From a virus: a stretch of 39,444 nucleotides of DNA. The translations under genes were made by a program, and so were the position numbers. The notes below the pieces were generated by a model. It saw nothing but the letters and a program-made list of their open reading frames with translations. It had not been told where the DNA came from and did no database searches. Shown here in pieces: positions 1,779 to 39,444 of this stretch (position 1 is its first letter; each line of letters starts with the position of its first letter). The stretch is taken from positions 1 to 39,444 of IMG/VR virus record IMGVR_UViG_3300031616_000016, one strand, 5' to 3'.

Positions 1779-1955
1779 ATGGGTCGGGCCCTGCACCTCT
1801 GCGCTCGTTGCCGAGTGACCTTCCTCCTTGGTGATCGCCGGTACGATGCGCTCTGGTGCCCCCGGTGTGGGAGATGGGCGGAGGAGACCTGTGGGGATCC
1901 GGGGTGTGAGCTGTGCCGGGAGAGGCCGGAGAGGCCGGGGGTGAGGGCGGCCTGA
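1779..1955 (+). CDS. Cys-rich zinc-ribbon mini-protein
   Basis: 58 residues from ATG 1779. The product contains an ordered series of cysteines: C-x2-C near residues 8-11, C-P-R-C-G in the middle, then C-x4-C-x2-C near residues 40-47. That gives about seven Cys in a protein this short, an obvious metal-binding pattern of zinc-ribbon type. There is no membrane segment. It is the last rightward gene before the gene-poor region and the leftward integrase. The ribosome binding site is weak, and coupling to the 25-codon frame at 1741-1818 is possible. Function is unknown. Confidence 0.55.
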   Translation: MGRALHLCARCRVTFLLGDRRYDALWCPRCGRWAEETCGDPGCELCRERPERPGVRAA

Positions 1956-1965
1956 AAAAGCTGCT

Positions 1966-2035
1966 GACTTCGCAAGCGTCTCGGCGCCGGGCGGTCCTGG
2001 CGCGCTGGACGGTTCCGACGCGGAGCGGGCGGAGG
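1966..2035 (-). repeat. dispersed tail element, degraded non-genic copy
   Basis: On the + strand this reads GACTTCGCAAGCGTCTCGGC... and ends GCGGGCGGAGGG. It aligns by eye over about 70 bases with the elements at 5985-6058 and 8045-8118. Its minus-strand translation gives the same SxxxSEPSSAxxPPGAExxAKS pattern, but no stop codon or credible gene is attached. The GCGGAGCGGGCGGAGGGGGG end is repeated again at about 2211-2230. Confidence 0.65.
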
Positions 2036-2601
2036 GGGGGGGCACGGTTTCCGGTTTCCCCGGGTCCGCGCGATTCACCTGATGGGAGGCGCGGGAGCCA
2101 ACCCGGAGCGGCTTTCGGGCTGGGTAACCCGCCCACAAGGCGAAGCACCAAGGGCTAACCCCCGTGTACCAGCGCAACGGCCCACTGGCCCGCGCCTCCC
2201 GTTCGCCGACGCGGAGCGGGCGGAGGGGGGCGCGGATGACCTGAATGACGTCAGACTTGGGCACTACGCTCTTAGGCATCGGGTCGATCCTCTCTCGATC
2301 CCGGTCATCGGGGCGGCCGTTGGCGCGGCGCGCCCCTTTCCCGTGGCGCCAAGTCCTAGCAGGGTAATCTGACGTAGCGCCGCGAACGCCCACGTCAGCG
2401 CGCACATCAAGCACACGCTCGCGGCGGCGCCCCAGCGACCTCGCACCGCGTCAACGTCTAGTCCCTCCGGACGATCACGCTCTGGGACGAGGAGCGGACG
2501 GGGCGGGACGGATGGGGTAGGTCTTCCCGAGGCACGCGCACTCGGAGACGTTTCCCCTTCTAACCTGGATGGAGGAAGGCGCGGACGGGGCCCCAGGCGA
2601 A

Positions 2602-2638
2602 GAAGCGCCCCCGAGATCCCGTACCCCAGGGGCGCTTC
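2602..2638. terminator. strong hairpin, likely bidirectional terminator
   Basis: GAAGCGCCCC (2602-2611) is a perfect inverted repeat of GGGGCGCTTC (2629-2638), a 10-bp GC-rich stem with a 17-base loop. It lies just beyond the 3' end of the leftward integrase gene and after the rightward lysis genes. There is no run of T on either side, so classical intrinsic termination is not certain. Confidence 0.55.
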
Positions 2639-2687
2639 AACCTAAGACCCGTCGGACCGCCTACAGGAGATGCACGCGGGGGTGAGA

Positions 2688-4115
2688 CTAACCGCGGCGG
2701 GTGGCGCCGGGCAAGAAGACCACCTTCGAGGCGTCCGGCTCAAGCAGCCGATGCACGTAGCCCTCCCACAACTCGAGCGCGGCCCGCCGCTCCTTCAAGT
2801 AGTCGTAGTGATCGTACGTCTGCCCGATCCGCCCGATCGAGTGGTTGAGGCACCGCTCCGCGATGTGCGGCGCGACCCCCAGGTCGCCGAGCTTCGTCCG
2901 CACGGTGCGCCGGAGGTCGTGCGGCGTGCAGCGGCCCCCGGGCAGCTCGAGTAGGCCGCCGTCGAACAGGCCTCGCAAGGCGTGGGAGAGCGCCTTCTCT
3001 GTGATGTGGCCCCCTTCCGCCTTCGCGCTCGAGACGACCCACGGCGAGCGGCCGGCGATCTTCTTCAGCTCACGGAAGAGGGCCAGCGCATCGGGGGCGA
3101 GCGGGACGATCCAGGGTTTCGCGTCCGGAAGTTGGCTCGGGTTCAGCTTCTGGTTCTCCACCGGGATGGTCCAGATCGCAGCCTCGAGCTCGACGTCCAC
3201 CCATCGGGCCTTGAGGAGCTCTCCGGTGCGGATCCCGATGAGAAGGAGGAGCCGTAGGGCGAGACGCACCTGGAAGAGCAGCCGGCGCGCGCCGGGCCTG
3301 TGCGCGTCGAGCGCGCGCCAGAACGCGGGGATCTCGTCGGGGCCGAGGGTGCGCTTCCCGATCTTCGTCCTCACTCCGAGGGCGTCGCGGCGGAGGACGG
3401 CCGCCGGATTCCGGGCGATCTCCTCACCGAAGGCCTCCGCCCAGCCGAAGAGCTGCTTCAGGTGGTCGAGCACCTTTCCGGCGTGGGAGGTAGCGCCGCG
3501 GTCGATGACCTTGAGGATGATCGCCCGGCAGTCGGCTGTGGTGACGGAGGCGAGCGGCTTGTCGCCGATGGCGGGGAGGATGTCCGTGTCGAGGGTGCGG
3601 CGGACCTCGTCGGGCCGGCGGCGAATCGGGAGGATGGCGCGCCCGTAGAACTCCTCCGCGAGCTCGCGGACGGTCTTCCTCGGGGAAGGGATCGCGAGGA
3701 CCGACCGGGCGGCCTCTTCGAGCCGGCCAACCTCATGCGCGCGCTTCAGCTCCTCGAGACGGTCCCGCGCCTGCGCCAGGGTGACGAAGCCGGGCGCCTC
3801 CTTCATGGACCAGGTGCCGACCGTGAGCGTCGTCTGACGGCGCCCGGCGTCGGGCGCGACATCCGGCGTCGCTGGATGTCGCTGGATGTCGCCCGGCGTC
3901 GCTCGCCCCGTCTCGCCCGGCGCCGCTGGACATCGCCCGGCGTCGGTCCTCCAGTAGACCCAGCGGAAGACCAGGCGCCCCGAGGGCTGGACCCGGAGCT
4001 TCAGCCCGGGGCACTTCGCGTCGACCAGGTCGTAAGGGACCGACCCTGGACGGAGCGACTCGAGGAACTTGGGGGTGAAGCCGAGCGGCGGAGTGGTAGG
4101 CTTCTGGGGAGCCAT
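2688..4115 (-). CDS. int: tyrosine recombinase, P4-type integrase
   Basis: 475 residues from ATG 4115, preceded by a GGAGGG ribosome binding site. The product integrates the phage at a tRNA gene by site-specific recombination. An N-terminal DUF4102 arm-DNA-binding domain (residues 10-120) precedes the core-binding and catalytic domains. Catalytic residues seen are R296 (GIRTGELLK), H399-x2-R402 (PHDLRRT), H425 (ERCLNH) and nucleophile Y434 (QTYDHY). Residues 61-91, in the hairpin of the arm domain, are a repetitive Pro/Gly/Ala/Arg insertion encoded by repeats of GGCGTCG and CTGGATGTCG units (about 3838-3950). The family normally has only a short turn there. attP lies immediately upstream. All catalytic residues are present, so it is probably active. 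Confidence 0.93.
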   Translation of the reverse strand: MAPQKPTTPPLGFTPKFLESLRPGSVPYDLVDAKCPGLKLRVQPSGRLVFRWVYWRTDAGRCPAAPGETGRATPGDIQRHPATPDVAPDAGRRQTTLTVGTWSMKEAPGFVTLAQARDRLEELKRAHEVGRLEEAARSVLAIPSPRKTVRELAEEFYGRAILPIRRRPDEVRRTLDTDILPAIGDKPLASVTTADCRAIILKVIDRGATSHAGKVLDHLKQLFGWAEAFGEEIARNPAAVLRRDALGVRTKIGKRTLGPDEIPAFWRALDAHRPGARRLLFQVRLALRLLLLIGIRTGELLKARWVDVELEAAIWTIPVENQKLNPSQLPDAKPWIVPLAPDALALFRELKKIAGRSPWVVSSAKAEGGHITEKALSHALRGLFDGGLLELPGGRCTPHDLRRTVRTKLGDLGVAPHIAERCLNHSIGRIGQTYDHYDYLKERRAALELWEGYVHRLLEPDASKVVFLPGATRRG

Positions 4116-4242
4116 CGATCCCTCCATGAAGGGGTTCGGCGGTGAGGGCTCCGAGGCGGCTGCGAACCGCTCCGGGGCCCGAATCATGTGGCGCGCAGAA
4201 GACCAGAACGCGCGGCCCAGGTGAAGCGCCTTCTGTGGGTCT

Positions 4243-4263
4243 GGACCAACAACCGGACCAACA
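4243..4263 (+). repeat. paired arm-type site 1 (GGACCAACA x2)
   Basis: Two direct copies of GGACCAACA start 12 bp apart (4243 and 4255). The same pair recurs at 4473 and 4733. This pair lies between the integrase start and the tRNA-like core. Paired direct repeats on both sides of a core are the usual appearance of integrase arm-binding sites. Confidence 0.7.
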
Positions 4264-4385
4264 TGGCGACGGGCAGCGACTGGCGGCGAAGGACGGCGCG
4301 CGACGGCGCCCGTCACAAACCCGCGCAGGTACTGGAGGCGGCGACGGGCGGCGACGGGCGACGGCGGGCGCAGCCGGCCGGGGAT

Positions 4386-4430
4386 GCCTTCACACGGCGG
4401 GGGTCGCTGGTTCGAAACCAGCAGCGCCCA
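4386..4430 (+). other. attP: attP core: 3' part of a tRNA-Val(CAC) gene
   Basis: The 45 bases have exact tRNA geometry: anticodon loop TTCACAC (anticodon CAC), stem 3' strand GGCGG, variable loop GGGTC, T stem GCTGG, loop TTCGAAA, stem CCAGC, acceptor strand AGCGCCC, discriminator A. The 5' half of a tRNA is absent upstream and CCA is replaced by TCA, so this is a tRNA fragment. It sits 270 bp upstream of the integrase start between paired arm repeats. Recombination with the host tRNA-Val gene would restore the tRNA. Confidence 0.88.
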
Positions 4431-4472
4431 TCAGCACTTAACGGATCCGGCAGGGAAGGGGAACCGCGCAGC

Positions 4473-4493
4473 GGACCAACATCCGGACCAACA
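4473..4493 (+). repeat. paired arm-type site 2 (GGACCAACA x2)
   Basis: Two direct copies of GGACCAACA start at 4473 and 4485, again 12 bp apart. They lie 43 bp beyond the attP core on the side away from the integrase gene and 20 bp before the end of the neighbouring HTH gene. Confidence 0.7.
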
Positions 4494-4512
4494 TAGCCGG
4501 AGGGGCGGAACA

Positions 4513-5193
4513 TCACGCCGGGGGACTCACCTTCGGGCGGTGCGCCTCTTCCCAGGCCTCGATCTCGCGCAGGTACCAGCACCGCAAGGCGCCGCAGTAG
4601 TGCGGGACGGGGAACTTCGGCGGCTTCGCCGTGTACCAGTCTCGGATGGTGGTGCGGCCCCGGCCGAGCCGCGCCTGAAGCGCCACGATCTGGATGTGCC
4701 GCCCGGAGCCGGGGCCGACCTCGATCTCCCGCGGACCAACATCCGGACCAACAGCTTCCCCCAGGAGCTTCACCACCTCGAGTCGGAGCGCCTCGAACTC
4801 CTCCCGGATGATGGATCGGAGCTCGGTCAGCGCCTCGGCGACAGTTGGGGCCAGCGCTTCCCCGGGCGTCCCCTGGTAGACCGCCACCGCCGGAGCTCCA
4901 CACCTGGCGCAGGACCCGTCCGCCAGGTGGTGGCTGTCATCCGGGCAGGTACAGCGGGTAGGGGGCGTGGAGGGGGAATGGGGGGCCTCTGGCGGGGCCC
5001 GGAGAGGGGAGCACCACTCCGCGCCCGGGGGCATGGGGGTCTCACAGGCGCAGCGCTCGGCCGGAGCCGGGAGCCCGATGACGAGCCCGCACCCGGCGCA
5101 CTTCTGCATGTAGCCGGGGATGGGGCCGTAGCCGATCTTGCCGTTGCCGGGGGTGGTCCCGTTCGTCGTCCCGTTCGTCTCGTTCCGCTTCAT
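4513..5193 (-). CDS. zinc-ribbon and HTH protein, candidate excisionase
   Basis: 226 residues from ATG 5193. The N-terminal half carries Cys pairs (CAGC near 31, C-A-C near 50, C-T-C and CARC near 82-98) that look like two zinc ribbons. A helical linker (about residues 120-150) follows. The C-terminal 55 residues form a helix-turn-helix of AlpA/excisionase type: ALQARLGRGRTTIRDWYTA, then an aromatic wing and a second Trp-Tyr helix. Its stop lies 20 bp from arm site 2, and arm site 3 is inside the gene. Last gene of the leftward operon, adjacent to attP, it is a good candidate for a recombination directionality factor or integrase regulator. That role is inference. Confidence 0.65.
   Translation of the reverse strand: MKRNETNGTTNGTTPGNGKIGYGPIPGYMQKCAGCGLVIGLPAPAERCACETPMPPGAEWCSPLRAPPEAPHSPSTPPTRCTCPDDSHHLADGSCARCGAPAVAVYQGTPGEALAPTVAEALTELRSIIREEFEALRLEVVKLLGEAVGPDVGPREIEVGPGSGRHIQIVALQARLGRGRTTIRDWYTAKPPKFPVPHYCGALRCWYLREIEAWEEAHRPKVSPPA
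4733..4753 (+). repeat. paired arm-type site 3 (GGACCAACA x2), inside a gene
   Basis: Two direct copies of GGACCAACA start at 4733 and 4745, the same 12-bp period as sites 1 and 2. The gene on the other strand reads this stretch as VGPDVGP. Keeping the whole 21-bp pattern identical within coding sequence suggests selection on the DNA site itself. Confidence 0.65.
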
Positions 5194-5738
5194 CCCTCGC
5201 CTCCATTCGTCGAGGCCGGCGGCAGAAGCAGCCCGCGCTCGACCACCCGCTGCATCCGAGGCAGAAGGATCTCGCCGAGCGTCTCGCCTGAGTCGGTGAC
5301 GACGTTCGCCATGAACTCGGCCTCGAGCGAGGAGATCCCGGAGGCGACGGCCTCGAGCTTCGCCTTGATCACGAGAACGAGGGCGCGCCAGCGCTGGCGC
5401 GTCGCGGCTTCGAGCTTCGCTTTCGTCCCTGCCTCGCGTTCCGTGGGCATCGGGACTGTGAGGCGGATCGCCCGCTCCTTGAACTTGAACTGGATGGTCA
5501 CGACCTCGCGCACGATGCGCTCCTCGGGTTCGATGTCCCACGCGTGCTCGCGCCTGCATGCTTCGATGGCGCGGCCTTCCTGCTCACAGCCCGCGCGCGA
5601 GCAGTGCACGGCCTTGACCTCGGTGCGCTGGTCCCAGCCATAGGCGAACCCGCTCGCGCCGTAGCGCACGAGGACGCGCTCCGCCTCGACGCGGCTCTTG
5701 TCGACGGTGACGGTCGTGCCCTCGGCGTAACGGGTCAT
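5190..5738 (-). CDS. conserved phage protein (MTRYAEGT family), unknown function
   Basis: 182 residues from ATG 5738. The N-terminus MTRYAEGTTVTVDKSR...RYGASGFAYGW is the hallmark of a protein widely found in early regions of temperate phages of GC-rich hosts. Also typical are a β-strand part with IRLTVPMP and a helix RQRWRALVLVIKAKLEAVASGI followed by EAEFMANVV. No function is established for the family. A Cys-containing insertion (HCSRAGCEQEGR, about residues 45-56) breaks the β-rich part and may add a metal site. The stop overlaps the next start (ATGA). Confidence 0.75.
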   Translation of the reverse strand: MTRYAEGTTVTVDKSRVEAERVLVRYGASGFAYGWDQRTEVKAVHCSRAGCEQEGRAIEACRREHAWDIEPEERIVREVVTIQFKFKERAIRLTVPMPTEREAGTKAKLEAATRQRWRALVLVIKAKLEAVASGISSLEAEFMANVVTDSGETLGEILLPRMQRVVERGLLLPPASTNGGEG

Positions 5739-5968
5739 GGTCCACCACCCTCCAGGCTCTTCCCCATCCTGCGCACCAGGGCCCGGACCTCCGCATCAGG
5801 GAAGGTCGCATTCAAGAGCGCCCGGTAGAGCGCGGCCGTCTCGAGGCGGCTCATCCCGAAGAAGGGCGCGCCGGCTTGGCTCACCGGCGCGCCGCGATGT
5901 GGTGGGCCGGCTTTCCCGGTCCCGTTGGCATGGCCGTTACCTCCTCCGTTCTGGTGACCGTTTTTCAT
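5735..5968 (-). CDS. small hypothetical protein
   Basis: 77 residues from ATG 5968. The N-terminal 30 residues are low complexity (Gly, Asn, His, Lys). The C-terminal half is a compact amphipathic helical part (SRLETAALYRALLNATFPDAEVRALVRRMGKSLEGG). There is no metal motif. It overlaps both neighbours by four bases, so it belongs to the leftward operon. I do not recognise a family. Confidence 0.55.
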   Translation of the reverse strand: MKNGHQNGGGNGHANGTGKAGPPHRGAPVSQAGAPFFGMSRLETAALYRALLNATFPDAEVRALVRRMGKSLEGGGP

Positions 5969-6171
5969 GGGTGATCGTCCTCATCAGATTTCGCAGGCGC
6001 CTCGGCGCCTGGCGGTGAAGTCGCGCTGGACGGTTCCGGCGCGGGCTGGACGGAGGGATACGCGCACGTCTCGATGGTGCGGCGCATCCGAAACGCGGCG
6101 AGACACCAGGCAACCTCGATCCGCTCGTCCGTCGTGACATCGCCCTGGCGGCACCACTCGTCGAAGGTCAT
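5965..6171 (-). CDS. small protein with shared C-terminal tail
   Basis: 68 residues from ATG 6171, with AGGAGG eight bases upstream. The N-terminal 40 residues are a compact unit (MTFDEWCRQGDVTTDERIEV...). The last 28 residues are the low-complexity tail SVQPAPEPSSATSPPGAEAP plus AKSD, encoded by the dispersed element at 5985-6058. The same kind of tail ends the genes at 7968-8324 and 8987-9460. The start was chosen by the strong ribosome binding site and the ATGA overlap with the upstream gene. Function unknown. Confidence 0.65.
   Translation of the reverse strand: MTFDEWCRQGDVTTDERIEVAWCLAAFRMRRTIETCAYPSVQPAPEPSSATSPPGAEAPAKSDEDDHP
5985..6058 (-). repeat. dispersed tail element, copy in gene 5965-6171
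   Basis: This 74-bp copy starts CAGATTTCGCAGG and ends GGACGGAGGGA on the + strand. It contains the near-perfect palindrome CAGGCGCCTCGGCGCCTG (5994-6011). Compared by eye with 8045-8118 it differs at about nine of 74 positions. It supplies the last 25 or so codons of the gene and ends about 17 bp from the next start codon. Confidence 0.75.
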
Positions 6172-6626
6172 GGAGAACCTCCTGCCGTGCAGCGCTCGCA
6201 CATCCACGTCGCCTCGAAGGCGCCGCGGGCTCCGCACGACTCGCACGTCCGTGCGGGCTCGATGCTCTGCACGCCACCGCACCGCGCCGGCTTGGCCCTC
6301 GGCTTCCGGTGCTGCTTCGCGTTGGGACAGGTCGCGAAGTGGGACGAGCGCAGCTTCTGCCCCGCGCGCGGCGTTTCGTCGCGGCGCAGCGCCCGGCAAA
6401 CGAAGCCCTCGCCCTCGCGCCAGTAGACGATGACGTTCCCGTCCGGAGTTGGCTCCCAGTCGATGGGCATCGAGCGGAAGCGCCCCGTCTCCTCGTTGCG
6501 GATACGCTGCCCGGCCTCGTCGAGGATGGCGGCCCAGAGGATCGGCGCGCTGCAGCTCGAGCAGAACCTCGGCGAGTGCGTGCGCGGCGCGGGGCTCGCG
6601 GCTTCGCTGTTCGGGTCCGGGTTCAT
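6168..6626 (-). CDS. double zinc-ribbon protein
   Basis: 152 residues from ATG 6626. A Ser/Pro-rich N-terminus is followed by FCSSCSAPILWA (C-x2-C), a stretch rich in charged and aromatic residues, then SSHFATCPNAKQHRK. A second ribbon at the end has CESCGARG and CERC. The first ribbon and the HFATCP.A..HR signature are shared with the 72-residue protein at 11151-11369, so the two are paralogues, this one longer and with an extra C-terminal ribbon. Function unknown; zinc binding and nucleic-acid contact are plausible from the motifs. The stop overlaps the next gene's start. Confidence 0.7.
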   Translation of the reverse strand: MNPDPNSEAASPAPRTHSPRFCSSCSAPILWAAILDEAGQRIRNEETGRFRSMPIDWEPTPDGNVIVYWREGEGFVCRALRRDETPRAGQKLRSSHFATCPNAKQHRKPRAKPARCGGVQSIEPARTCESCGARGAFEATWMCERCTAGGSP

Positions 6627-6633
6627 GGCAGGC

Positions 6634-7227
6634 CTAGAACAGCGCGAGCTGCCCTCGTGGCTTCGGCTTCGGCGCCTGGGTGACAGCTCGCCCGCGGCAC
6701 CATTCGGTCCAGCGCCTCCAGAGCGCCTCGTCGTCGATGCCCGCCGGGTTGTCCTTCCCGGGCGGCCAGAGCCCGGTCTCCTCGTGGAAGGCAGCGGCGA
6801 GCGGGGCGAAGCGTTCGAGAGGGGCCTTGAACCCGTCGGTCGTACCGGGTGCTTCTCCCGGTTGACGATCCTTCACGCCGACGATGCAAGGGCCCCCTCC
6901 AGCGCTCCGCTCCTCGAGCTGCCCGAAGCGTTCGAGAGGAGCGACCGGCTCACCGACACCCGCCGCCCGCCCGCCCGACCCCTGCGGCACAGCCGGTCGC
7001 CCCTCGCAATCGCTCCGAGGATCACGGAACCCGAGGCACTCGTCATCGCACGGCAGGCACAGCGCTGCGTGCACCTCGCCCTGGACGACGTCGTGCCGCG
7101 GGTATGAGTAGTTCGTCCAGGTGGCGATGAGCACGCCGCCCTCCTCGAAGCGGCGGCCGCCAGTCGTGTGGAGCGGCTCGGAGCGGGTGTCGCAACGGGT
7201 GCAAGTGAGGACGTCGCCGGGGTTCAT
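6634..7227 (-). CDS. zinc-ribbon protein with basic tail
   Basis: 197 residues from ATG 7227. Cys pairs near the start (LTCTRCDT, C-x2-C) and later CLPCDDEC suggest an N-terminal zinc ribbon of about 60 residues. A Gly/Pro linker follows, then a helical Trp-rich segment (ALWRRWTEWCRG), and the protein ends with a basic stretch and the hydrophobic tail GQLALF. Proteins ending QLALF or similar can bind sliding clamps through a QLxLF motif. This ending fits that consensus (QLALF), so a contact with the host β-clamp is possible but inferred. I do not recognise a named family. Confidence 0.6.
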   Translation of the reverse strand: MNPGDVLTCTRCDTRSEPLHTTGGRRFEEGGVLIATWTNYSYPRHDVVQGEVHAALCLPCDDECLGFRDPRSDCEGRPAVPQGSGGRAAGVGEPVAPLERFGQLEERSAGGGPCIVGVKDRQPGEAPGTTDGFKAPLERFAPLAAAFHEETGLWPPGKDNPAGIDDEALWRRWTEWCRGRAVTQAPKPKPRGQLALF

Positions 7228-7433
7228 GAGGTGACCTCGCCCTGGTCTTCCGTCGCCAGCTCCACCCGTCCGGCCTCCCTCGCCTGGATCTCCCGGAGCA
7301 GCTCGGCCGCCCGGTGGGTGATGCCCCAGGGCTTGCCCTCTTCGGTGCGCAGGGCGGCGATCTCCGTGAGGAGCCGGTAGACGGCGACGTGGAGAGCACC
7401 GGTCCAGGTGCAAACGGTCGTCGGGCGGGCCAT
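7224..7433 (-). CDS. small hypothetical protein
   Basis: 69 residues from ATG 7433. The sequence is mostly helical (ALHVAVYRLLTEIAALR, then AAELLREIQAREAGR) with one Cys and no metal cluster. It overlaps the start of the following gene by four bases and the stop of the previous one by one base (TGATG). I do not recognise a family. Confidence 0.55.
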   Translation of the reverse strand: MARPTTVCTWTGALHVAVYRLLTEIAALRTEEGKPWGITHRAAELLREIQAREAGRVELATEDQGEVTS

Positions 7434-7675
7434 CAGTCCCCCCATGTCGCTTCGTCTGGGTCGAGCTTCCGGGCGAGCTCCTCGGCCTCCGCCACCGTGT
7501 GCGCCGAGCAGATCCAGCCGCCGTCGACCTCGGCCTTGAGCTGGCACCTCTCCCCGTCGCCGAGCAGGTCGGTATCCTCGACGAGCCGGTGGGGGATGAG
7601 CATGAGGTCCTCCGAGGAGCGGCCCCCGATGCAGGGATCGGTCTCGGTGCAGCCGCAGAGGAGGCAGCGCTTCAT
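7433..7675 (-). CDS. Cys-rich phage protein, CxxCGCTETDPC type
   Basis: 80 residues from ATG 7675. It begins MKRCLLCGCTETDPC, a C-x2-C-G-C-x5-C cluster, and has a second cluster GWICSAH near residue 55. The same architecture occurs in the protein at 9881-10156 (MSTCIICGCSDDRPC...ICSAH), so the phage carries two diverged paralogues. Small Cys-rich proteins of this type are common in early operons of temperate phages; no function is established. The pattern strongly suggests a structural zinc site. Confidence 0.7.
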   Translation of the reverse strand: MKRCLLCGCTETDPCIGGRSSEDLMLIPHRLVEDTDLLGDGERCQLKAEVDGGWICSAHTVAEAEELARKLDPDEATWGD

Positions 7676-7971
7676 GGCCCGTCTCCCGTGTCCCCGTCCA
7701 CGCCGCCGAGCAGATCCGGGGGCACGACATGCAGGCGCATCGGCGGGGGTCTCGAGACGGGGTGGAGGTGGAGGAGCGGCGGGATTCCCGCGGTCCGTGC
7801 TGTCGCGGCGACGCCTCGTAGGTGCTCGAGCTCGTGGGAGAGGATTCGGGCGCTCGCCTCCCGGCCCTCGCGTTTGTGGGACTCGAGGACCTGGCCCAAG
7901 AGGTGGAGCGCGTACTCGAGGCGATCGAGGAGGAAGGAGCAGCCGGTGCAGGGGTCACGGGGGGCGGTCAT
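7672..7971 (-). CDS. small helical protein
   Basis: 99 residues from ATG 7971. A CTGC motif at residues 8-11 is followed by a long amphipathic helix region (FLLDRLEYALHLLGQVL, then ILSHELEHLRGVAATA). The tail is proline-rich. It overlaps its neighbours by four bases on both sides. No family recognised. Confidence 0.6.
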   Translation of the reverse strand: MTAPRDPCTGCSFLLDRLEYALHLLGQVLESHKREGREASARILSHELEHLRGVAATARTAGIPPLLHLHPVSRPPPMRLHVVPPDLLGGVDGDTGDGP

Positions 7972-8324
7972 GGGCGGTCGCCTTTTGCCGCGGAGTTTGT
8001 GGCGGGTTTGTTGGTGCCCTCCACGGCGGAATCAGCAGCAACATCAGATTTCGCAGGCGCCCCGGCGCCGAGCGGTGAAGTCGCGCTGGGCGGCTCCGAC
8101 GCGGGGCGGGCGGAGGGAGGCGCGGCGTGCATCGCATGAAGATGCGCGCGCCAGTTCGCGCCCCCCTCTTCGAGCGCCGCCAGTGCCCGCTCGTAGTACG
8201 GCACCATGGACGCGCACGCCTGGCCGTAGGCGGTCGCCCTGGTGCGCCGACGCGCGGTGGCGATGAGCGAGCGGAGTTCGTCTGCCATGTCCTCGTGACG
8301 GCCACACTCAGGGCAGCGGCTCAT
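7968..8324 (-). CDS. small zinc-binding protein with shared C-terminal tail
   Basis: 118 residues from ATG 8324. It opens with MSRCPECGRH (C-x2-C-x2-H), followed by a helical body to about residue 68. The tail then begins at ARPASEPPSATSPLGAGAPA and continues AKSD, encoded by the dispersed element 8045-8118. It has a further 20 low-complexity residues after the element, unlike the copies at 5965 and 8987, which end soon after it. The N-terminal unit is unrelated to theirs, so only the tail is shared. Confidence 0.65.
   Translation of the reverse strand: MSRCPECGRHEDMADELRSLIATARRRTRATAYGQACASMVPYYERALAALEEGGANWRAHLHAMHAAPPSARPASEPPSATSPLGAGAPAKSDVAADSAVEGTNKPATNSAAKGDRP
8045..8118 (-). repeat. 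dispersed tail element, copy in gene 7968-8324
   Basis: This 74-bp copy starts CAGATTTCGCAGGCGCC and ends CGGGCGGAGGGA on the + strand. The central palindrome is partly preserved (GGCGCC CC GGCGCC). It is the closest relative of 5985-6058, with about nine differences by eye. Confidence 0.75.
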
Positions 8325-8980
8325 GGCCCCTCCTTCGCCGTGTCGGGGGCGAGGGCGCGCATGGTGTTCTCGTCGAAGTCGGGGCAGGCGTCTCGCGTGC
8401 AGTAGTGCTTGAGCCTGCCCCGAGCGTCGAAGTGCGGCGCCTCAGACTCTCGGGGGCCAGGTCCAGCAGCCGGGGGTTGGCGAGTCGGCGTCAGGTCCGC
8501 CAGCGGAGCACCGCTCATGGAAGAACAGGCCGGTGGGGTTGATGGCGCACAGGCCGATGGTGCCGTCGTCGTTGACCTGGGTGACGATGGCGGCGCGGGG
8601 AAGGGGCTTGAACTCTCCTCCGGGTGTTCCGAACGAGTGGTAGTGGACGATGCGGCCAACGGTGGGGGTCTGGAAGGGCATGGCTCTCCTTGCGTTGCTG
8701 CGGGTTGAACAGGACGTGCCGCCGCGTCGAGGGCGAGGGCGGCTAGGAGTTGTCGCAGACATGCTGCCCAGCCGAGGGTTGCTCCGCCATCGACGTGTGT
8801 GCGCCACGCGCAGACAAGATTCTCAACGCGGCCGAGCGCCTCCCGTAGCTGGTCCCGCTCGGCGAGGGCGGTGTCTCGTTCCTTTGCGAGCCCTTTGGCG
8901 ACCCCGGCCCACTCATCGGCGAGGCTGTCCCGCTCTGCGGTCAGCTCGGCCAGGACAGCGGTGCAGTTCTCACAGGTCAT
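8321..8980 (-). CDS. coiled-coil protein, open frame fused to a downstream small gene
   Basis: The frame is open for 219 codons from ATG 8980. Residues 1-90 look real: MTCENC (C-x2-C), then a coiled coil (ELTAERDSLADEW, ERDQLREALGRVENLV) resembling the middle of the protein at 8987-9460, ending AARPVQPAATQGEP, which echoes the shared tail. Codons across 8442-8681 translate to Ser/Thr/Pro filler because another gene occupies a different frame there. The frame then becomes plausible again from an internal ATG at 8518 (MSGAPLADLTPTRQ..., with HYCTRDACPDFDENT), 65 residues. It is either two genes whose intervening stop has been lost, or one 219-residue protein. Confidence 0.5.
   Translation of the reverse strand: MTCENCTAVLAELTAERDSLADEWAGVAKGLAKERDTALAERDQLREALGRVENLVCAWRTHVDGGATLGWAACLRQLLAALALDAAARPVQPAATQGEPCPSRPPPLAASSTTTRSEHPEESSSPFPAPPSSPRSTTTAPSACAPSTPPACSSMSGAPLADLTPTRQPPAAGPGPRESEAPHFDARGRLKHYCTRDACPDFDENTMRALAPDTAKEGP
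8442..8681 (-). CDS. conserved phage protein (GRIVHYHSFGTPGG family), nested
   Basis: 79 residues from ATG 8681, with AAGGAGA just upstream. The pattern GRIVHYHSFGTP, then RAAIVTQV, GLCAINPTGLFF and a C-terminal W.WPPRV is that of a small protein recurring in temperate phages of proteobacteria and actinobacteria, of unknown function. It lies entirely inside the open frame of 8321-8980 but in another frame. The strong ribosome binding site and family match make this the real gene of the interval. Confidence 0.8.
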   Translation of the reverse strand: MPFQTPTVGRIVHYHSFGTPGGEFKPLPRAAIVTQVNDDGTIGLCAINPTGLFFHERCSAGGPDADSPTPGCWTWPPRV

Positions 8981-8986
8981 GGCGGA

Positions 8987-9460
8987 TCACGGCTCCGAAG
9001 AGGAAGAATCAGAAGCGTCAGATTTCGCAGAGCGCCTCGGAACGGGCGGCTCTGTCGCGCTGGACGGTTGTTGTGCGGGCTGGACGGAAGAGAGCGCGAG
9101 GGCGTCCTGGGCGTTCCGCAACGCCATCACGAAGGGTATCTGCCGAATCGAGAAATCAGGCTCGTGGTCCCTGCTGGTGTCGCGAACAAGCGTCCCGTCC
9201 TCGACGAGCAGGAAGACCCGCGCCAGCGCGTCTCGCAGCGCGTCCCGCTCGGCGGTCAAGGCGGCGAGGGCGTCACGGAGATCATCCCCGAGATTGCAGA
9301 TGATCGCGAAGTCCTCGCCCGGGGCTAGAAGTCGTGCGGTCGCGTTGTCCAGTAGCGCCACGAGTGCTTCCTCAACGGCACCGTCCAGCCCGCCCGGAGT
9401 CGCTCGCCCATCGAGGCCGCTACTCTCCGAGTCAGCGTGAGTCAGCTTGTTGTCCTTCAT
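8987..9460 (-). CDS. coiled-coil protein with shared C-terminal tail
   Basis: 157 residues from ATG 9460. An acidic N-terminus is followed by a helical part with coiled-coil periodicity (LTAERDALRDALARVFLLVE). The tail SSVQPAQQPSSATEPP, then SAKSDASDSSSSEP, is encoded by the dispersed element at 9019-9088. The segment ERDALRDALARV is close to ERDQLREALGRV in the downstream protein 8321-8980, suggesting tandem duplication. No enzymatic motif is seen. Confidence 0.6.
   Translation of the reverse strand: MKDNKLTHADSESSGLDGRATPGGLDGAVEEALVALLDNATARLLAPGEDFAIICNLGDDLRDALAALTAERDALRDALARVFLLVEDGTLVRDTSRDHEPDFSIRQIPFVMALRNAQDALALSSVQPAQQPSSATEPPVPRRSAKSDASDSSSSEP
9019..9088 (-). repeat. dispersed tail element, copy in gene 8987-9460
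   Basis: It starts CAGATTTCGCAG and ends GGGCTGGACGG. It is more diverged than the 5985 and 8045 copies: the central palindrome is lost (AGCGCCTCGGAACGGG) but both flanks are preserved. Confidence 0.65.
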
Positions 9461-9654
9461 CGCGTTCCCTCCCCCATGCCAGCATCCTCCTGCGTGTAGC
9501 CGCACCTCCCGCATGTCCCCCCAACTGGCACCTCCACGATCGACGGGTGGCGCTCCATCCGCAGAGCCTCTCTGACCACTCGGTCTCGATCCTCCCCGCA
9601 GGCAATGACAGTCGAGAGCCCAACCCCGGGACGGGCGGTGTAGTGGCGCGTCAA
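9457..9654 (-). CDS. small CxxC protein with TTG start
   Basis: 65 residues from TTG 9654. The start was chosen because TTGA overlaps the upstream stop in the same way as the ATGA junctions of this operon, and GGAGAAGGGAGG precedes it. The body has CGEDRDRVVREALRMERHPS, then CGRCGYTQEDAG (C-x2-C) near the end. I have seen similar phage proteins but cannot name a function. Only one clear Cys pair is present, so metal binding would need a partner or a dimer. Confidence 0.55.
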   Translation of the reverse strand: MTRHYTARPGVGLSTVIACGEDRDRVVREALRMERHPSIVEVPVGGTCGRCGYTQEDAGMGEGTR

Positions 9655-9884
9655 GCGTCGCCTCCCTTCTCCTGCATGGCCCTCTCGAACGCGTGCTCGG
9701 CGGTCTCGCCCTTCTGCATCTCGGCCGGCCGCATCGGCGGAGGCTTCATGGCTATCCTCCGGAACGAAGCCGCGTCGCCGGTAGCGCCGCCCGCTTTTTC
9801 CACCTCTTCCGCCATGAGGAGCCATGCGGCAGCCCAGCCCCCGCCCCATCCCGCCTGGAGCAATAGCCGCTCGCGCTCGCTCAT
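9651..9884 (-). CDS. small hypothetical protein
   Basis: 77 residues from ATG 9884. An N-terminal helix with aromatic and glycine residues (LLLQAGWGGGWAAAWLLM) resembles a short amphipathic or membrane-touching segment. The remainder is charged and helical. It overlaps both neighbours by four bases. No family recognised. Confidence 0.5.
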   Translation of the reverse strand: MSERERLLLQAGWGGGWAAAWLLMAEEVEKAGGATGDAASFRRIAMKPPPMRPAEMQKGETAEHAFERAMQEKGGDA

Positions 9885-10156
9885 GGCGGTTCTCCAATCG
9901 CGTCCCCGAGCCCGAACTCGAAGAGGCCGTTACCGTGCCTGGCCACCGCGAAGCCGTAGCTCGCGAGCTCTTCCGCCGGATGCGCCGAGCAGATCGTGTG
10001 CCCCTGGTCGAGCCAGGAACAGGTGGAGCCGGCGGCGAGCAGGTCCTCCTCGGGCACGAGCCTGTGAACCCAGGCGGCCTCGACGATCGAGGCGAAGATC
10101 GCGGCACCGAGGCAGGGGCGATCGTCCGAGCAACCGCAGATGATGCAGGTGCTCAT
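9881..10156 (-). CDS. Cys-rich phage protein, paralogue of 7433-7675
   Basis: 91 residues from ATG 10156. It begins MSTCIICGCSDDRPC (C-x2-C-G-C-x5-C) and later has TCSW...ICSAH, the same order of motifs as the 80-residue protein at 7433-7675 but with a longer C-terminus. The frame is open upstream to an ATG at 10396, where it would read MSCRCQREPCNPRCPWRN, itself a Cys-rich beginning, so a longer 171-residue form cannot be excluded. The intermediate part reads like filler and overlaps gene 10153-10332, so the short form is preferred. Confidence 0.65.
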   Translation of the reverse strand: MSTCIICGCSDDRPCLGAAIFASIVEAAWVHRLVPEEDLLAAGSTCSWLDQGHTICSAHPAEELASYGFAVARHGNGLFEFGLGDAIGEPP

Positions 10157-10332
10157 GCCGGCATCCTTTCTTCGCCCCGGTAGGCCTGCGCCACATCCAT
10201 CGCCAAGAGGATCGCGAGGCACCGCGGGCACGTCACCCGATCCCTGCGCTCCGTCACCCGTCCCCATGGCCGGCCGCAACGCGCGAACCTCTGCCCGAAG
10301 TCCGTGCGGCGGTAATGGGTGGGACGCTTCAT
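10153..10332 (-). CDS. small zinc-ribbon-like phage protein
   Basis: 59 residues from ATG 10332: MKRPTHYRRTDFGQRFARCG, then a short linker and VTCPRCLAILLAM. The pattern, with an upstream Cys-Gly and a C-x2-C followed by a helix, is typical of small early proteins of temperate phages that form a single zinc ribbon. The stop is ATGA-coupled to the next gene. It is short but well supported by coupling and pattern. Confidence 0.6.
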   Translation of the reverse strand: MKRPTHYRRTDFGQRFARCGRPWGRVTERRDRVTCPRCLAILLAMDVAQAYRGEERMPA

Positions 10333-10395
10333 GGGCGTTCTCGTTTCTCCACGGGCACCGTGGGTTGCATGGCTCTCGTTGGCAGCGACAGGACA

Positions 10396-10575
10396 TCAGC
10401 CTTCAGACGCCTCGGGCTTGGGCTGTCCCCGCCGCGTCGGCGGGTCAGGTTCGGGCTGGACGGCAGAGGTGCGCGGCGCGAATCGCGACGGTATCCAGTC
10501 GCACTCCGTCCACGACGGCAGGGCACCGAGGAGCCACACGCACCGGGGGAAGTGGATGCAGGCTGCACAGACCAT
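10396..10575 (-). CDS. small Cys protein, CxHFPxC...CDWxPSRF type, with tail
   Basis: 59 residues from ATG 10575: MVCAACIHFPRCVWLLG, then ECDWIPSRF. This C-x2-C-x4-C...C-D-W-x-PSRF arrangement is a recognisable small phage protein type of unknown function. After residue 35 it carries SAVQPEPDPPTRRGQPKPEA, a diverged version of the shared Pro-rich tail. The gene ends 64 bases before the next start, the only such gap in this part of the operon. A Cys-rich open frame beginning MSCRCQREPC starts at 10396 inside that gap. Confidence 0.6.
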   Translation of the reverse strand: MVCAACIHFPRCVWLLGALPSWTECDWIPSRFAPRTSAVQPEPDPPTRRGQPKPEASEG

Positions 10576-13405: not shown

Positions 13406-14083
13406 ATGAAGGGGCGCCCACGGAAGTGCGACGGCGAGGTTGACTGGGGTTTCGGGTACACGCGACTGCCAAACGAAGCCTTCTTGAGGGACGGGATCGC
13501 GGCGCTGTTCCGGCCCGAACTGCGCTTTCCTGCGCTCGAGATCCTGTGGCGGTGCGCGCACCAGCGCGAGGCCGGGGAGGTCTATTCGAAGAAGCTCGGG
13601 CGGACGGTTCGCCTCGATGCCGGGGAGTGCCTCTTCGGCCGGGACGCCTTCGCGAAGCAGCATGGGATCACCCGCAACGCGGCGCGCCACCTCGCCCTCC
13701 GCCTGGTCGCGCTCGGGTGGATCTCGGTCCGTTCGACGGAATCCAGTATTCCCAAGGTTTCGCCCGGTGGTCCGCCCGGTGCGCGCCCGGTGCGCGCCGG
13801 GTGCCCATCCGTGCTCAGGCTTGTAATGTGGAGGGAAATTCTCCTCACGCGGGCCGAGTCCGCCCGGTGCGCGCCCGAAAGCCGCCCGGTGCGCCGCCCC
13901 GAAGTAATAAGAGATCAACAACCAATCATGGGAGGCGCGCTCGAAAGCGAAGCTTCGGCTCAGGCCTCCCCCGACCAGCTCGCCCTGTGGCCGTGCGCCG
14001 TGGAGCCGCAGGCCAAGCCGGTCGTGACGAGCATCGACTGGCAGCGACGGGACTTCGCCGGGGACAAGGGGCGTCGCGGGTGA
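13406..14083 (+). CDS. O-like replication initiation protein
   Basis: 225 residues from ATG 13406. The N-terminal half matches phage replication proteins with a winged-helix domain: GYTRLPNEAF, LRFPALEILWRCAHQ, VRLDAGECLFGRDAFA and ITRNAARHLALRLVALGWIS. Such proteins bind origin iterons and load the helicase. The middle part (about residues 118-170) is Arg/Pro-rich because it is encoded by CGCCCGGT iterons, which suggests that the origin lies inside its own gene, as in lambda O. The C-terminus is short and no helicase or helicase loader follows, so host DnaB loading may be direct. It ends by GTGA overlap with the next gene. Confidence 0.65.
   Translation: MKGRPRKCDGEVDWGFGYTRLPNEAFLRDGIAALFRPELRFPALEILWRCAHQREAGEVYSKKLGRTVRLDAGECLFGRDAFAKQHGITRNAARHLALRLVALGWISVRSTESSIPKVSPGGPPGARPVRAGCPSVLRLVMWREILLTRAESARCAPESRPVRRPEVIRDQQPIMGGALESEASAQASPDQLALWPCAVEPQAKPVVTSIDWQRRDFAGDKGRRG
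13761..13935. other. ori: candidate replication origin (iterons plus A/T-rich stretch)
   Basis: CGCCCGGT occurs at 13761, 13773, 13784, 13861 and 13883, with a near copy around 13872. The first three are spaced 12 and 11 bp, one helical turn. A stretch unusually rich in A/T for this genome follows (about 13901-13930, GAAGTAATAAGAGATCAACA...). An imperfect inverted repeat GGAGGGAAATTCTCC lies between the two iteron groups. All of this lies inside the replication gene. Confidence 0.6.
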
Positions 14084-15051: not shown

Positions 15052-15810
15052 ATGGCCAAGCGCACCGGCTCAGCCTCGATCCTCCTCGGTCTCACCCGTG
15101 TACCCGTCGCGGTCTTCCCAGGAGCCCAGGATCCGCCCCGGATCTCGTTCTCCACGCTCTGCAAGGAGCACGCTGCCAAGCCCTCTCAGGTCTACCGCTG
15201 CCCCGTCGACGAGAAGATCCTCGAGAAGGAAGAGCAGGCCAAAGGCTACGAGCTCGGGAAGAACCGATTTCTCATCGTCCCCGAGGACGAGCTCGCGGCC
15301 CTCGATACCGACCCGGAGATCCGGATCGACGCCGCGTTCCCTCTCATCGACGTGGATCCCCGGCTCTGGACCGGCCAGGTGCAATACCTCGCCGCGGACA
15401 TCGGCGACGGGCCGGTGACCGACATCGCTGGCGCGCGCGACTTCGCCCGCTTCGCCGCTCGTCTCGAGGAGCGCGGCCTCGTCGCGGTAGGTCGCTGGGC
15501 CTCGCGGGGCACCGATCGCCTGGTGGGGATCTACTCGCGCTCGGGAGACGACGGGAAGGCGCGGCTCGTGCTCCAGGGCATGCGCCGAGCGGCCGAAGTA
15601 CGGGACGTTCACGAAATTGCGGCGGCAGGAAACGCAGAGCCAGGCGGTGAGATTGACACCATCTTGAAGCGGCTCACGGTTTTGCATCTCGACACCGGAG
15701 CCTATCCAGACGAACGGTACGAGCTGACCGTGCAGCTCCTCCAGGCGAAGGCGGAGCAGGCCGCGGCCGAGCCGTCCCCGAAGAAGAAGCCCAAGCGCGC
15801 GGCCCGCTAA
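15052..15810 (+). CDS. ku: phage Ku protein (NHEJ DNA-end binding)
   Basis: 252 residues. Bacterial Ku dimers thread onto double-strand ends and recruit ligase LigD. Family features seen in order: the start RTGSASILLGLTRVPVAVFP (usual form WxGxISFGLVxVPV), a CKEHAAKPSQVYRCPVDEKI segment where the family has a Cys-containing stretch, KGYELGKNRFLIVPEDELAA (usual KGYEYxKGxYVxLxxEEL), the IDVDPRLWTGQVQYLA strand, the RFAARLEERGLVAVGRWASR helix-strand, and a final basic tail (KKKPKRAAR). The length is normal for bacterial Ku. No ligase or polymerase domain is encoded nearby, so it would need host LigD. Phage Ku is known from mycobacteriophages Omega and Corndog, where it aids genome circularisation. 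It heads a small operon. Confidence 0.88.
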   Translation: MAKRTGSASILLGLTRVPVAVFPGAQDPPRISFSTLCKEHAAKPSQVYRCPVDEKILEKEEQAKGYELGKNRFLIVPEDELAALDTDPEIRIDAAFPLIDVDPRLWTGQVQYLAADIGDGPVTDIAGARDFARFAARLEERGLVAVGRWASRGTDRLVGIYSRSGDDGKARLVLQGMRRAAEVRDVHEIAAAGNAEPGGEIDTILKRLTVLHLDTGAYPDERYELTVQLLQAKAEQAAAEPSPKKKPKRAAR

Positions 15811-18798: not shown

Positions 18799-19170
18799 TT
18801 GCATCCATCTTCGATGCGGTGGTGCTATCGCGGCGACTGGGATCGACCTCGCGTGTACTGCGCCGTCCCCGACTGCATCCGGCCTGCGGATGGACGCTAC
18901 TGCTGCTGCCATCGCAAGCGGCTCCAGCGTGGCCAGTCCCTGGGCGCTCCGCTCGACGTGGCGCACCTCTCTCCGCGCGGGCGCGTGCTCGAGGCGGCGA
19001 TCGCGCTCGTCGAGGCCGAGTCAGACGAGGACCACCAGCGCGCCTGGGTGCGGTTGCGGAAGGCGGCCCTCGCCTGGCTCCTCGGGGAAGCCGCGACCGT
19101 CCCCCACCTCGCGGCGCGCCTCGCGGCCCTCCGCTTCGGCGCCGAGAAGCACCGCGGGGCTCGGCGGTGA
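18799..19170 (+). CDS. Cys/His-cluster protein upstream of second recombinase
   Basis: 123 residues from TTG 18799, or 118 from ATG 18814. The N-terminal part has YCAVPDCIRPADGRYCCCHR, then KRLQRG, a C-x5-C...C-C-C-x-R or Cys/His cluster like the short zinc fingers in phage HNH or DNA-binding proteins. The C-terminal half is helical (RVLEAAIALVEAESDEDHQR). It overlaps the recombinase start (GTGA), so the two are co-expressed. A DNA-binding helper of the recombinase is a possibility. Confidence 0.6.
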   Translation: MHPSSMRWCYRGDWDRPRVYCAVPDCIRPADGRYCCCHRKRLQRGQSLGAPLDVAHLSPRGRVLEAAIALVEAESDEDHQRAWVRLRKAALAWLLGEAATVPHLAARLAALRFGAEKHRGARR

Positions 19171-20330
19171 GCCGCCCACGGCGCGTCGCGGGCAACGTCT
19201 ACCGCCGCGCCGATTCCCAGGTCTACTGGCTCTGGTACTGGGACCGAGACGGCAAGCGGCGCCGCCGCGCGAGCTCGGCCGACGAGGCCACCGCCCGAGC
19301 CGAGCTCGCAGCCATCCTCGAGCGCGTGCGCCAGGGCGAGGCCGCGATCGCCGACTCGGGCGAGCTCACCATCGCGGTCTGGGGCGAGCGCTGGGTAGCG
19401 CTCCGGCGCGAGGCCGGGAAGGGCGAGGCGGACAACGAGGCGGCCCACCTCGAGCACCACATCGTGCCGGCGCTGGGCCGGATCTGCCTGCGAGACCTCT
19501 CCACCGCCCAGGTGCTCGACTTCGTCCGGCGCCTCCCGGCCCAACTGGTCGCCACCGGGAGCGGCGAGCGGCTCGCGCCGGCGACGTGTCACAAGGTGGC
19601 GGGCACCCTGCGCAGCCTCTGCCGCGAGGCCGCCAAGCGCGAGCTCATCCAGGCATCCCCCTGCGACTGGGACAAGGGCGACCTCCCCGAACTCGGCGCG
19701 CCGGCGGTGGGCGAGGGCTTCTCCGCGGAGGAGGTCCTGCGGCTCGTCACTGACGAGCGCGTGCCCGAGGATCGCCGCGTGCTCTACGCGCTCGAGTTCC
19801 TGACCGGCATGAGGACCGGCGAGGCCGCGATCCGGCGCTGGCGCGACTGGGATGGGACGAAGACTCCGCTCACCGCCCTGCGCGTAGAGACCAGCTGGTC
19901 GACGCGCAGGCAAGTCGAGAAGGAGACGAAGACCCGCGTGCGGCGCACGATCCCTGTACATCCGGCGCTGGCGCGCATCCTCGAAGGGTGGCGGGGATCG
20001 GGCTTCGCGCGCATCTTCGGGCGCTCGCCTGTGGTGGAGGACCTCATCGCGCCAGGCGAGGGCGGCGCGCCGCGGGCGAACACCGACTCGTGGCGGCTCT
20101 TCCAGGCCGACCTCGAGGTCCTCGGGCTGGGCGCGCAGCGGCACTACGAGACCCGCTCGACGTTCATCAGCTTGGCCGAGGGCGGCGGGGCGGACTCGGC
20201 CTCGATCGCCATCCTCACGCACCCATCGCCGCGCGCCGCGAAGGACCTCTATCGCCGCCTGCGCCTCCTGTGGCCACAGCTCTGCCGCGCGGTCCTGGCG
20301 ATACCGCTCGAGCTGCCCAAAGCAGCCTGA
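19167..20330 (+). CDS. second tyrosine recombinase
   Basis: 387 residues from GTG 19167. An N-terminal arm region (GNVYRRADSQVYWLWYWDRD) and a core-binding helical domain (residues about 70-180) precede the catalytic domain. Active-site candidates are R216 (LTGMRTGEAA), a basic β-hairpin (KETKTRVRRTIPVHP), R330 in YETRSTFISLA, H352 (ILTHPSP) and nucleophile Y362 (KDLYRR). Box II would normally be H-x2-R, and here it is Y327-x2-R330, with a His one position earlier. It is unrelated in detail to the P4-type integrase at 2688-4115. No tRNA fragment or arm repeats are visible nearby, so the target and role are unknown. Confidence 0.82.
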   Translation: MSRPRRVAGNVYRRADSQVYWLWYWDRDGKRRRRASSADEATARAELAAILERVRQGEAAIADSGELTIAVWGERWVALRREAGKGEADNEAAHLEHHIVPALGRICLRDLSTAQVLDFVRRLPAQLVATGSGERLAPATCHKVAGTLRSLCREAAKRELIQASPCDWDKGDLPELGAPAVGEGFSAEEVLRLVTDERVPEDRRVLYALEFLTGMRTGEAAIRRWRDWDGTKTPLTALRVETSWSTRRQVEKETKTRVRRTIPVHPALARILEGWRGSGFARIFGRSPVVEDLIAPGEGGAPRANTDSWRLFQADLEVLGLGAQRHYETRSTFISLAEGGGADSASIAILTHPSPRAAKDLYRRLRLLWPQLCRAVLAIPLELPKAA

Positions 20331-39038: not shown

Positions 39039-39444
39039 GACGCCTCCTCCTCCTCCGAGCTCGCTCGACGGACCAGGGCACGCTGGGCGCGCTCCTGCGC
39101 GAGGACGGGTCACGGATCGCGTACACGCTCGAGTTGCCGTGGCGCGAGAACCGGCCGCGCGTCTCGTCCATCCCGCCCGGTGCCCCGCCGCCCGGCGAGT
39201 ACGTGTGCAAGCTCAGGCGCTCGCCCAAGTTCGGGCCGGTCTACGAAGTGACCGGAGTCGCGTGGCGCTCGCTCATCCTCATGCACACCGGCAACTGGGC
39301 TGGGGACGTCTCGAAGGGCTACCGCTCGCACGTCCTCGGCTGCATCCTCCTCGGTCTGTACCAGGGCCGTCGCGAGGGGCAGCTCGCGGTCATGGTCTCG
39401 CGGCCGGCTGTCACCCGGCTCGAGCGCGAAATGCAGGGCCAGCC
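39035..39444 (+). CDS. DUF5675-type lysis-region protein, N-terminal part (continues at base 1)
   Basis: Starts at GTG 39035, overlapping the previous stop, and is cut by the window end. It reads RARSTDQGTLGALLREDG, then YTLELPWRENRPRVSSIPPG and EYVCKLRRSPKFGPVYEVTG, followed by LMHTGNWAGD and KGYRS, which match the DUF5675 family well. The protein is completed at bases 3-200 for 154 residues in all. Family members accompany holin genes, so a wall-directed function in lysis is likely though not demonstrated. Confidence 0.83.
   Translation, partial: MRRLLLLRARSTDQGTLGALLREDGSRIAYTLELPWRENRPRVSSIPPGAPPPGEYVCKLRRSPKFGPVYEVTGVAWRSLILMHTGNWAGDVSKGYRSHVLGCILLGLYQGRREGQLAVMVSRPAVTRLEREMQGQ
39300..39444. 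repeat. terminal direct repeat, right copy
   Basis: This repeats 1-145 with one mismatch (39318 G versus 19 T). The G variant encodes Gly in the KGYRS motif of the DUF5675 protein, which is the expected residue, so the right copy is the more credible one. Confidence 0.95.

Follow-up and report, generated by a model that had tools for sequence, protein, structure and literature searches.

A DNA element shared by the ends of unrelated small genes

The subject of this study is a DNA element, here called T3, that recurs at the ends of small genes in the phage record IMGVR_UViG_3300031616_000016 of the IMG/VR database, which we analyzed over its positions 1–39,444 (39,444 bases; hereafter the window). 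Among the proteins of the window Pfam recognizes a tyrosine integrase, a Ku protein and a large terminase; genes were called with our own codon-usage caller, and a few were added by hand. Four copies of T3, A to D, form an ungapped family over an 83-nucleotide core and share one orientation (Table 1), and the profile matches of copies A to C put the full element at about 100 bp. In the alignment of copies the 3′ end of the element takes two forms, AAATCTGACGTTGCTTCTGATTCC and AAATCAGCAGCT. Copy D lies between a plus-strand gene that ends at 1744 and the integrase gene (2688–4115), and copy C carries a −1 indel and a +1 indel that together restore its reading frame. An original prediction, made from the letters of the window, had proposed that near-identical and diverged copies lie in one orientation and that the frame SVQPASEPPSAT..PPGAEAPAKSD ends proteins with unrelated N termini, and both proposals are borne out.

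When the copy at 5982–6064 was compared with those at 8042–8124, 1966–2036 and 9018–9088, the scores were 101, 70.7 and 65.3 bits, respectively, whereas 100 dinucleotide-shuffled versions of the window gave 31.9 bits at best. The signal, that of the copy at 1961–2043 included, is thus far above the GC-rich background that could have explained it away. Other details of the prediction stood in part. The weak copy predicted at 10396–10470 was missed by blastn and by a first profile, and was detected at 10391–10475 by a later profile from whose training set it was absent; the fragment predicted at 2211–2235 is borderline, scoring 46.4 bits over 2206–2235 against a maximum of 45.5 in 30 whole-window shuffles. 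The predicted spacing, no more than about 25 bp from the end of a copy to the next start codon, holds for copy A (14 bp from its core end to the start at 5968), but not for copy C (about 36 bp, from 9016 to the start at 8980) or copy B (about 71 bp, from 8042 to the start at 7971).

Table 1 T3 copies, the genes that carry them and other features (window positions unless a locus is named)
Feature	Position	Strand	Description
Copy A	5969–6066 (core 5982–6064)	−	In-frame tail of 68-amino acid (aa) product of 5965–6171; profile E 1.1e-22
Copy B	8027–8126 (core 8042–8124)	−	Tail of 118-aa product of 7968–8324; profile E 1.6e-22
Copy C	8998–9101 (core 9016–9098)	−	Tail of product of 8987–9460; profile E 3.8e-22
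Copy D	1949–2043 (core 1961–2043)	−	Non-genic, outside any called gene; E 2.5e-15
5′ fragment of T3	2206–2235	−	Non-genic; borderline significance
Diverged fifth copy	10391–10475	−	End of 59-aa open reading frame (ORF) 10396–10575 (..SAVQPEPDPPTRRGQPKPEASEG); profile E=5.5e-4
Carrier gene 1	5965–6171	−	68 aa, MTFDEWCRQGDV..; body related to G2_007 (L034:3911–4147), whose end differs
Carrier gene 2	7968–8324	−	118 aa, MSRCPECGRHEDM..
Carrier gene 3	8987–9460	−	157 aa; orthologue G1_068 (L039:7129–7482)
T2	8319–8357	−	Codes ..ALAPDTAKEGP; holds AAGGAGGGG and ATGA start of 7968–8324; also in L006, L013, L033 and L036
T4	7968–8020	−	..TNSAAKGDRP and ATGA; shared with L033:4733–5176 (..TNPAAKGERP)
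AERDRLREALR segment	8835–8864; L006 4064–4104, 4321–4377, 5227–5262; L033 6245–6281, 6678–6719		Codes coiled coil inside many small proteins
Ku-family proteins	15052–15810; L034 4157–4987; L038 18190–19062		First two by Pfam/NCBIfam; L038 by similarity to these
Extra tyrosine recombinase-like genes	19167–20330; L034 6201–7358; L038 2088–3071; L036 9310–10320		L038 and L036 genes Xer-like

T3 in six contigs

A profile built from 13 copies and applied at a threshold of E<1e-3 returned 21 matches in six contigs (169,674 bases in total), 8 of the 21 lying outside the training set; the best E values in the controls were 0.014 (244 kb of unrelated loci) and 0.15 (reversed sequence). Besides the window, the contigs comprise four other IMG/VR phages found by pattern and profile scans, namely IMGVR_UViG_3300037483_001430 (G1; loci L006 and L037–L039), IMGVR_UViG_3300044774_000040 (G2; loci L013, L034 and L035), IMGVR_UViG_3300044786_000175 (G4; loci L022 and L036) and IMGVR_UViG_3300042191_000208 (L056), and one contig binned in a Planctomycetota metagenome-assembled genome (MAG), JAFGKN010000159.1 (G3; loci L015 and L033). 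These contigs are metagenomic, and assembly joins are an unlikely source of repeats that are internal to each of them.

Copy number is low, at about one to five per contig, and the element is found at few of the roughly 20 junctions per operon. Seven copies, each at or close to the 3′ end of a gene, are translated in frame as the C-terminal tails of proteins that fall into six unrelated body families; when the shorter gene-end modules T1, T2 and T4 (see below) are counted too, there are 27 tailed genes in 22 body families. Other copies are intergenic (window 1949–2039; L036 7919–8011, 9043–9126 and 9169–9254; G1 39134–39234; L034 5941–6026) or are read in a frame other than that of the tails (in G1_050, L038:15513–16850, and in the L056 gene 844–1455). 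Inverted pairs of T3 occur at L034 5941–6026 and L036 9043–9254, each upstream of a tyrosine-recombinase gene, and a T3-like copy lies directly upstream of the Ku gene in G1, G2 and L056.

A repeat of the host genome was considered and rejected: the MAG that contains L033 held no further convincing copy, and a search of 294 genomes from the same phylum yielded two weak, GC-rich partial matches that we judged to be chance. Searches of known phages and plasmids in INPHARED and PLSDB gave no match to the element. Of seven matches in a pattern scan of genome contigs, L015 alone was genuine, and the viral pattern matches L012, L021, L023 and L024 were unrelated to the element. Relatives identified through conserved early proteins (L043–L045, L048, L049, L050, L054 and L058) contained no convincing copy.

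DNA, not the tail peptide, is conserved

Differences among the tail copies are spread over the three codon positions in the ratio 83:106:126, and only 53 of 219 differing codons (24%) are synonymous, the other 166 being replacements; in ordinary genes of the same phages the differences by codon position are 15:8:22 and 10:5:25. The tail copies are 63–89% identical to one another, and the noncoding copy D is 60–83% identical to them. Some of the copies lie between genes or are translated in a different frame, so that the unit kept is DNA and not peptide. The tail peptide drifts neutrally, whereas at the DNA level most of the identity stays at 75–90%. Tail copies of different phages diverge by 11–26% over all positions, with the diverged copy C left out, as compared with a third-position divergence of approximately 27–43% in genes of these phages (from the codon-position counts). 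The lower divergence of the tails is consistent with later exchange or with constraint at the level of DNA.

We consider it very unlikely that T3 is instead a functional C-terminal peptide, such as a disordered linker or a localization or degradation signal, spread by recombination for its benefit to small proteins. The seven clear tail copies all use one reading frame and retain a composition rich in proline, alanine and serine, and the paired indels of copy C restore its frame, as would be expected of such a peptide. However, the residues within the frameshifted patch of copy C differ, the synonymous share is low with codon positions nearly equal, copy D is as close to the tails as the tails are to each other, and orthologues without a tail exist.

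Gene order changes at T3 copies

The account that we favor, and regard as moderately probable, is that T3, at about 75–100 bp, is a dispersed DNA boundary sequence that joins small early genes or gene blocks in a small group of related uncultured phages, the translated tail being a passenger. One comparison is that of G2 (locus L034) with L056, two close relatives. These contigs are 95% identical as far as G2 position 3061, are then unrelated over 961 bp (G2) and 349 bp (L056), and regain 88–90% identity starting where a T3-like copy has its 5′ end (G2 4021, L056 1383). The next difference is a 153-bp segment that contains the inverted T3 pair and is present in G2 only, beyond which identity is 99.7%. 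Each of the three breaks in collinearity is no more than 24 bp away from a T3 or T2 copy (simulated P=0.0012). Upstream of Ku, G1 begins to match G2 and L056 exactly at that T3-like 5′ end (G1 39231), and the gene that precedes it in G1 is a third, unrelated one; at this copy, then, the downstream gene is constant and the upstream gene is different in each of three phages.

Orthologous genes tell a similar story. Carrier gene 3 and G1_068 are orthologous through T3, after which their ends and downstream genes differ; the tail of carrier gene 2 is missing from its orthologue L033:9540–9797; and G1_067 and G2_006 have a common body and different ends. The tails are thus not conserved parts of protein families. 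Two marker columns of the alignment (G/A at column 33 and T/A at column 88) show each of the four possible pairings across the copies. This pattern is consistent with recombination within the element, repeated mutation also being possible. Among the explanations put forward in the original prediction, a recombination linker is accordingly the best supported, by the breaks at copies, the exchange of tails between orthologues and the neutral drift of the tail peptide. Boundaries and copies coincide; that the copies actively promote exchange is what we infer.

Several observations weigh against this account. The coincidence of breakpoints comes from one close pair of contigs and was noticed post hoc, and gene-order breaks are also common at junctions without the element. 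Where a tailed gene was compared, the downstream neighbor was conserved in 0 of 14 cases, as against 6 of 37 for genes without a tail, a difference that is in the expected direction and not significant. No phage annealase was recognized among the scanned window proteins, which represent part of the genome only, and the single frame common to the tail copies could reflect some selection on the tail. Two related proposals were rejected, namely preferential breakage of gene order at element junctions across all phages, for which the excess was not significant, and travel of the element with the start of the downstream gene, since the genes downstream of the tail copies are all different.

We also considered whether T3 might be a miniature mobile element, resembling Rickettsia palindromic elements (RPEs), mycobacterial interspersed repetitive units (MIRUs) or miniature inverted-repeat transposable elements (MITEs), that inserts as a unit at gene ends or between genes and is mobilized in trans by an enzyme of the phage or of its host, with coupled stop and start codons as a tolerated niche. 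The existence of intergenic, in-frame and out-of-frame copies, the inverted pairs upstream of tyrosine-recombinase genes, the copy-bearing 153-bp segment found in G2 and absent from L056, and a MIRU-like size range and orientation with transcription all speak for an element of this kind. We nevertheless regard it as unlikely. Neither the constant termini nor the terminal inverted repeats of MITEs and insertion elements were found, and T3 has two different 3′ ends; target duplication was not seen around the 153-bp segment of G2, the sole presence/absence site; and identity of the flanks jumps from 90% to 99.7% across that site, a change that points to recombination. The one frame of the clear tail copies and the low copy number likewise argue against a mobile element.

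Companion modules at gene ends

Three shorter modules end genes of the same phages: T1 (AAGGCGGAGGGACGGGAGCCATGA, ..KAEGREP), T2 (GACACGGCGAAGGAGGGGACGTGA, ..DTAKEGT) and T4 (..NPAAKGERP), each peptide being followed by a stop. T1 and T2 contain the Shine–Dalgarno sequence of the next gene, and an ATGA or GTGA start is found at the end modules of the small-gene operon. The resulting 4-base stop/start overlap (−4 spacing) is present at 18 of 22 T1 or T2 junctions versus 24 of approximately 49 other junctions; because it is frequent elsewhere, the overlap itself is not special, and the special part is the repeated sequence. T3 immediately precedes T2 in G1_068 and G3_011, and precedes other ends in the window. 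Intermediate forms are also present: the ends of G3_014 (LAPPSV-DAAKEGT) and G1_066 (APPSIQP-DSAKEG) look like internal deletions of T3 plus T2, the end of G2_005 is a hybrid of T2 and T1, and G2_006 consists of two genes fused through a T3–T2 junction with loss of the stop codon.

For T3 as a boundary sequence, we envisage that exchange would occur between two copies, located either on different phage genomes or on a single one, by homologous recombination or by annealing. Such an event would swap the gene on one side of the copy and retain the gene on the other. A copy that landed in frame behind a gene would give rise to a proline-, alanine- and serine-rich C-terminal tail, the peptide being a passenger, and T1 or T2 at the very end of the gene would supply the Shine–Dalgarno sequence and the 4-base overlap, such that a swapped cassette might still be translationally coupled.

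Palindrome, structure and candidate recognition sites

The palindrome CAGGCGCCTCGGCGCCTG, which had been singled out in the prediction, is present in the copy at 5982 and specific to it, and is not a feature of the family: the consensus fold contains 14 pairs, none of which shows a compensatory change. Folding of eight copies gave z-scores of −1.7 to +0.2, and an Rfam scan of the window returned no families. A conserved hairpin or RNA is hence unsupported by folding, by alifold or by Rfam. The conserved palindrome or hairpin of a Rickettsia-type element is lacking, whereas presence in frame within coding sequence is a property of seven copies. An inserting palindrome of that type, suggested earlier, is not supported, given the unconserved palindrome, the target duplication that was not seen and the one shared frame, which is unlike random insertion.

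The suggestion of a transcript element that is also translated found no conserved structure to back it, and we grade it here within a broader reading in which T3 is a nucleic-acid regulatory element (an operator, a site of antitermination or processing, or a portion of a region where translation starts) that is incidentally translated. Conservation at the level of DNA, a mostly sense orientation and positions near gene starts, including those of Ku in G1, G2 and L056 and of a recombinase gene, are consistent with this reading, as is a hypervariable block of 5–6 bp between conserved halves (alignment A3, columns 54–58; permutation P 0.007, post hoc). On the other hand, covarying pairs, unusual folds and Rfam families are all absent, few operon junctions bear the element and the downstream gene varies. 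A regulatory role thus appears distinctly unlikely to us. The conserved halves and variable center might alternatively mark T3 as a recognition site for the extra tyrosine recombinases (Table 1), with integron-like exchange of early genes along with their translation signals, a scheme to which we give hardly any credence. At the end of an integron cassette, an attC site has an imperfect hairpin and the core boxes RYYYAAC and GTTRRRY. By eye, neither box is present at the ends of the aligned copies, and with no conserved hairpin found T3 was rejected as an attC site.

Relation to known systems

The prediction that such an element was undescribed for phages was too strong. Conserved boundary sequences figure in accounts of phage mosaicism, that of the lambdoid phages among them, and the closest description that we found concerns the mycobacteriophage Island3. 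There the adjacent and unrelated proteins gp67 and gp68 share their last 18 residues, encoded by about 50 bp; from a comparison with Brujita the authors inferred that recombination had occurred at a short stretch of shared boundary sequence, and they called this the first example from a mycobacteriophage (PMC3029335). Like T3, the Island3/Brujita boundary sequence provides shared gene ends on different bodies, and for T3 we find both short shared DNA at the joints of unrelated modules and, in one pair, breaks at copies. The Island3 case is one pair in one phage, whereas T3 is present about 21 times in six contigs, some copies being intergenic or out of frame, and is accompanied by separate modules that include the next start. 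We therefore describe T3 as a multi-copy, multi-phage variant of boundary sequences, for which Island3/Brujita is the single precedent.

Other phage and bacterial repeats resemble T3 in part. Promoter early stem-loops (PeSLs) of T4-type phages are repeated cassettes between small early genes for which modular shuffling has been proposed (Arbiol 2010 and Comeau 2014, as cited in PMC4503421); they combine a promoter with a stem-loop terminator, whereas a conserved stem-loop was not found for T3, which has copies within reading frames. MIRUs (PMC12548453) are short repeats that point in the direction of transcription and lie at DTGA, where stop and start codons are coupled at −4 spacing. Most T1 and T2 junctions have this spacing, as do about half of the other junctions. 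A MIRU carries its own short ORF coupled to the downstream gene, whereas in these phages it is the upstream gene whose end is repeated, and T3 lies farther upstream than this site. The start-associated sequences (SAS) and extended SAS (ESAS) of Cluster K mycobacteriophages (PMC3203893) are, similarly to T3, repeated in several phages, at the starts of a subset of non-structural genes; SAS is 13 bp long, ESAS is a 17-bp inverted repeat and both are tied to gene families, whereas T3 is longer than either, has no conserved inverted repeat and is found with changing partners. PeSLs, MIRUs and SAS/ESAS each behave like T3 in part, and each seems to fail or lack a defining feature.

RPEs are repeated palindromic DNA that is translated in frame inside unrelated proteins. 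Translation in frame is common to RPEs and T3; a palindrome is found in only one T3 copy. Proteins that bear RPEs have been tabulated (PMC2635572).

How phage mosaicism arises is an old argument, between homologous exchange at short boundary sequences and illegitimate joining with later selection, and boundaries that are recognizable in multiple copies in several genomes make the boundary-exchange model directly testable. As DNA passengers, puzzling shared protein tails would find an explanation, and shared C termini of small phage proteins should not be read as functional domains.

Neighboring sequence features

A 79-aa gene at 8442–8681 has DNA relatives in many mycobacteriophages and lies, in another frame, inside ORF 8321–8980, which starts with a coiled coil and ends in T2; the arrangement looks like an insertion of the 79-aa gene into this ORF. 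The coiled-coil AERDRLREALR sequence is encoded by a second dispersed segment (Table 1). Upstream of the integrase gene, a stretch at 4378–4436 (GGTTCGAAACC..) resembles the 3′ half of a tRNA and is flanked by three copies of GGACCAACAnCCGGACCAACA (4243–4267, 4473–4497 and 4733–4757); ARAGORN found no whole tRNA, and this region is probably attP with integrase arm sites. A direct terminal repeat of 145 bp (1–145 and 39300–39444, 99% identical) makes it probable that the record represents a genome that is circularly permuted or complete. Short tandem repeats lie in or near genes at 3869–3955 (TCGCTGGATGTCGCCCGGCG) and 13759–13892 (GCCCGGTGCGC), including the N-terminal part of the integrase.

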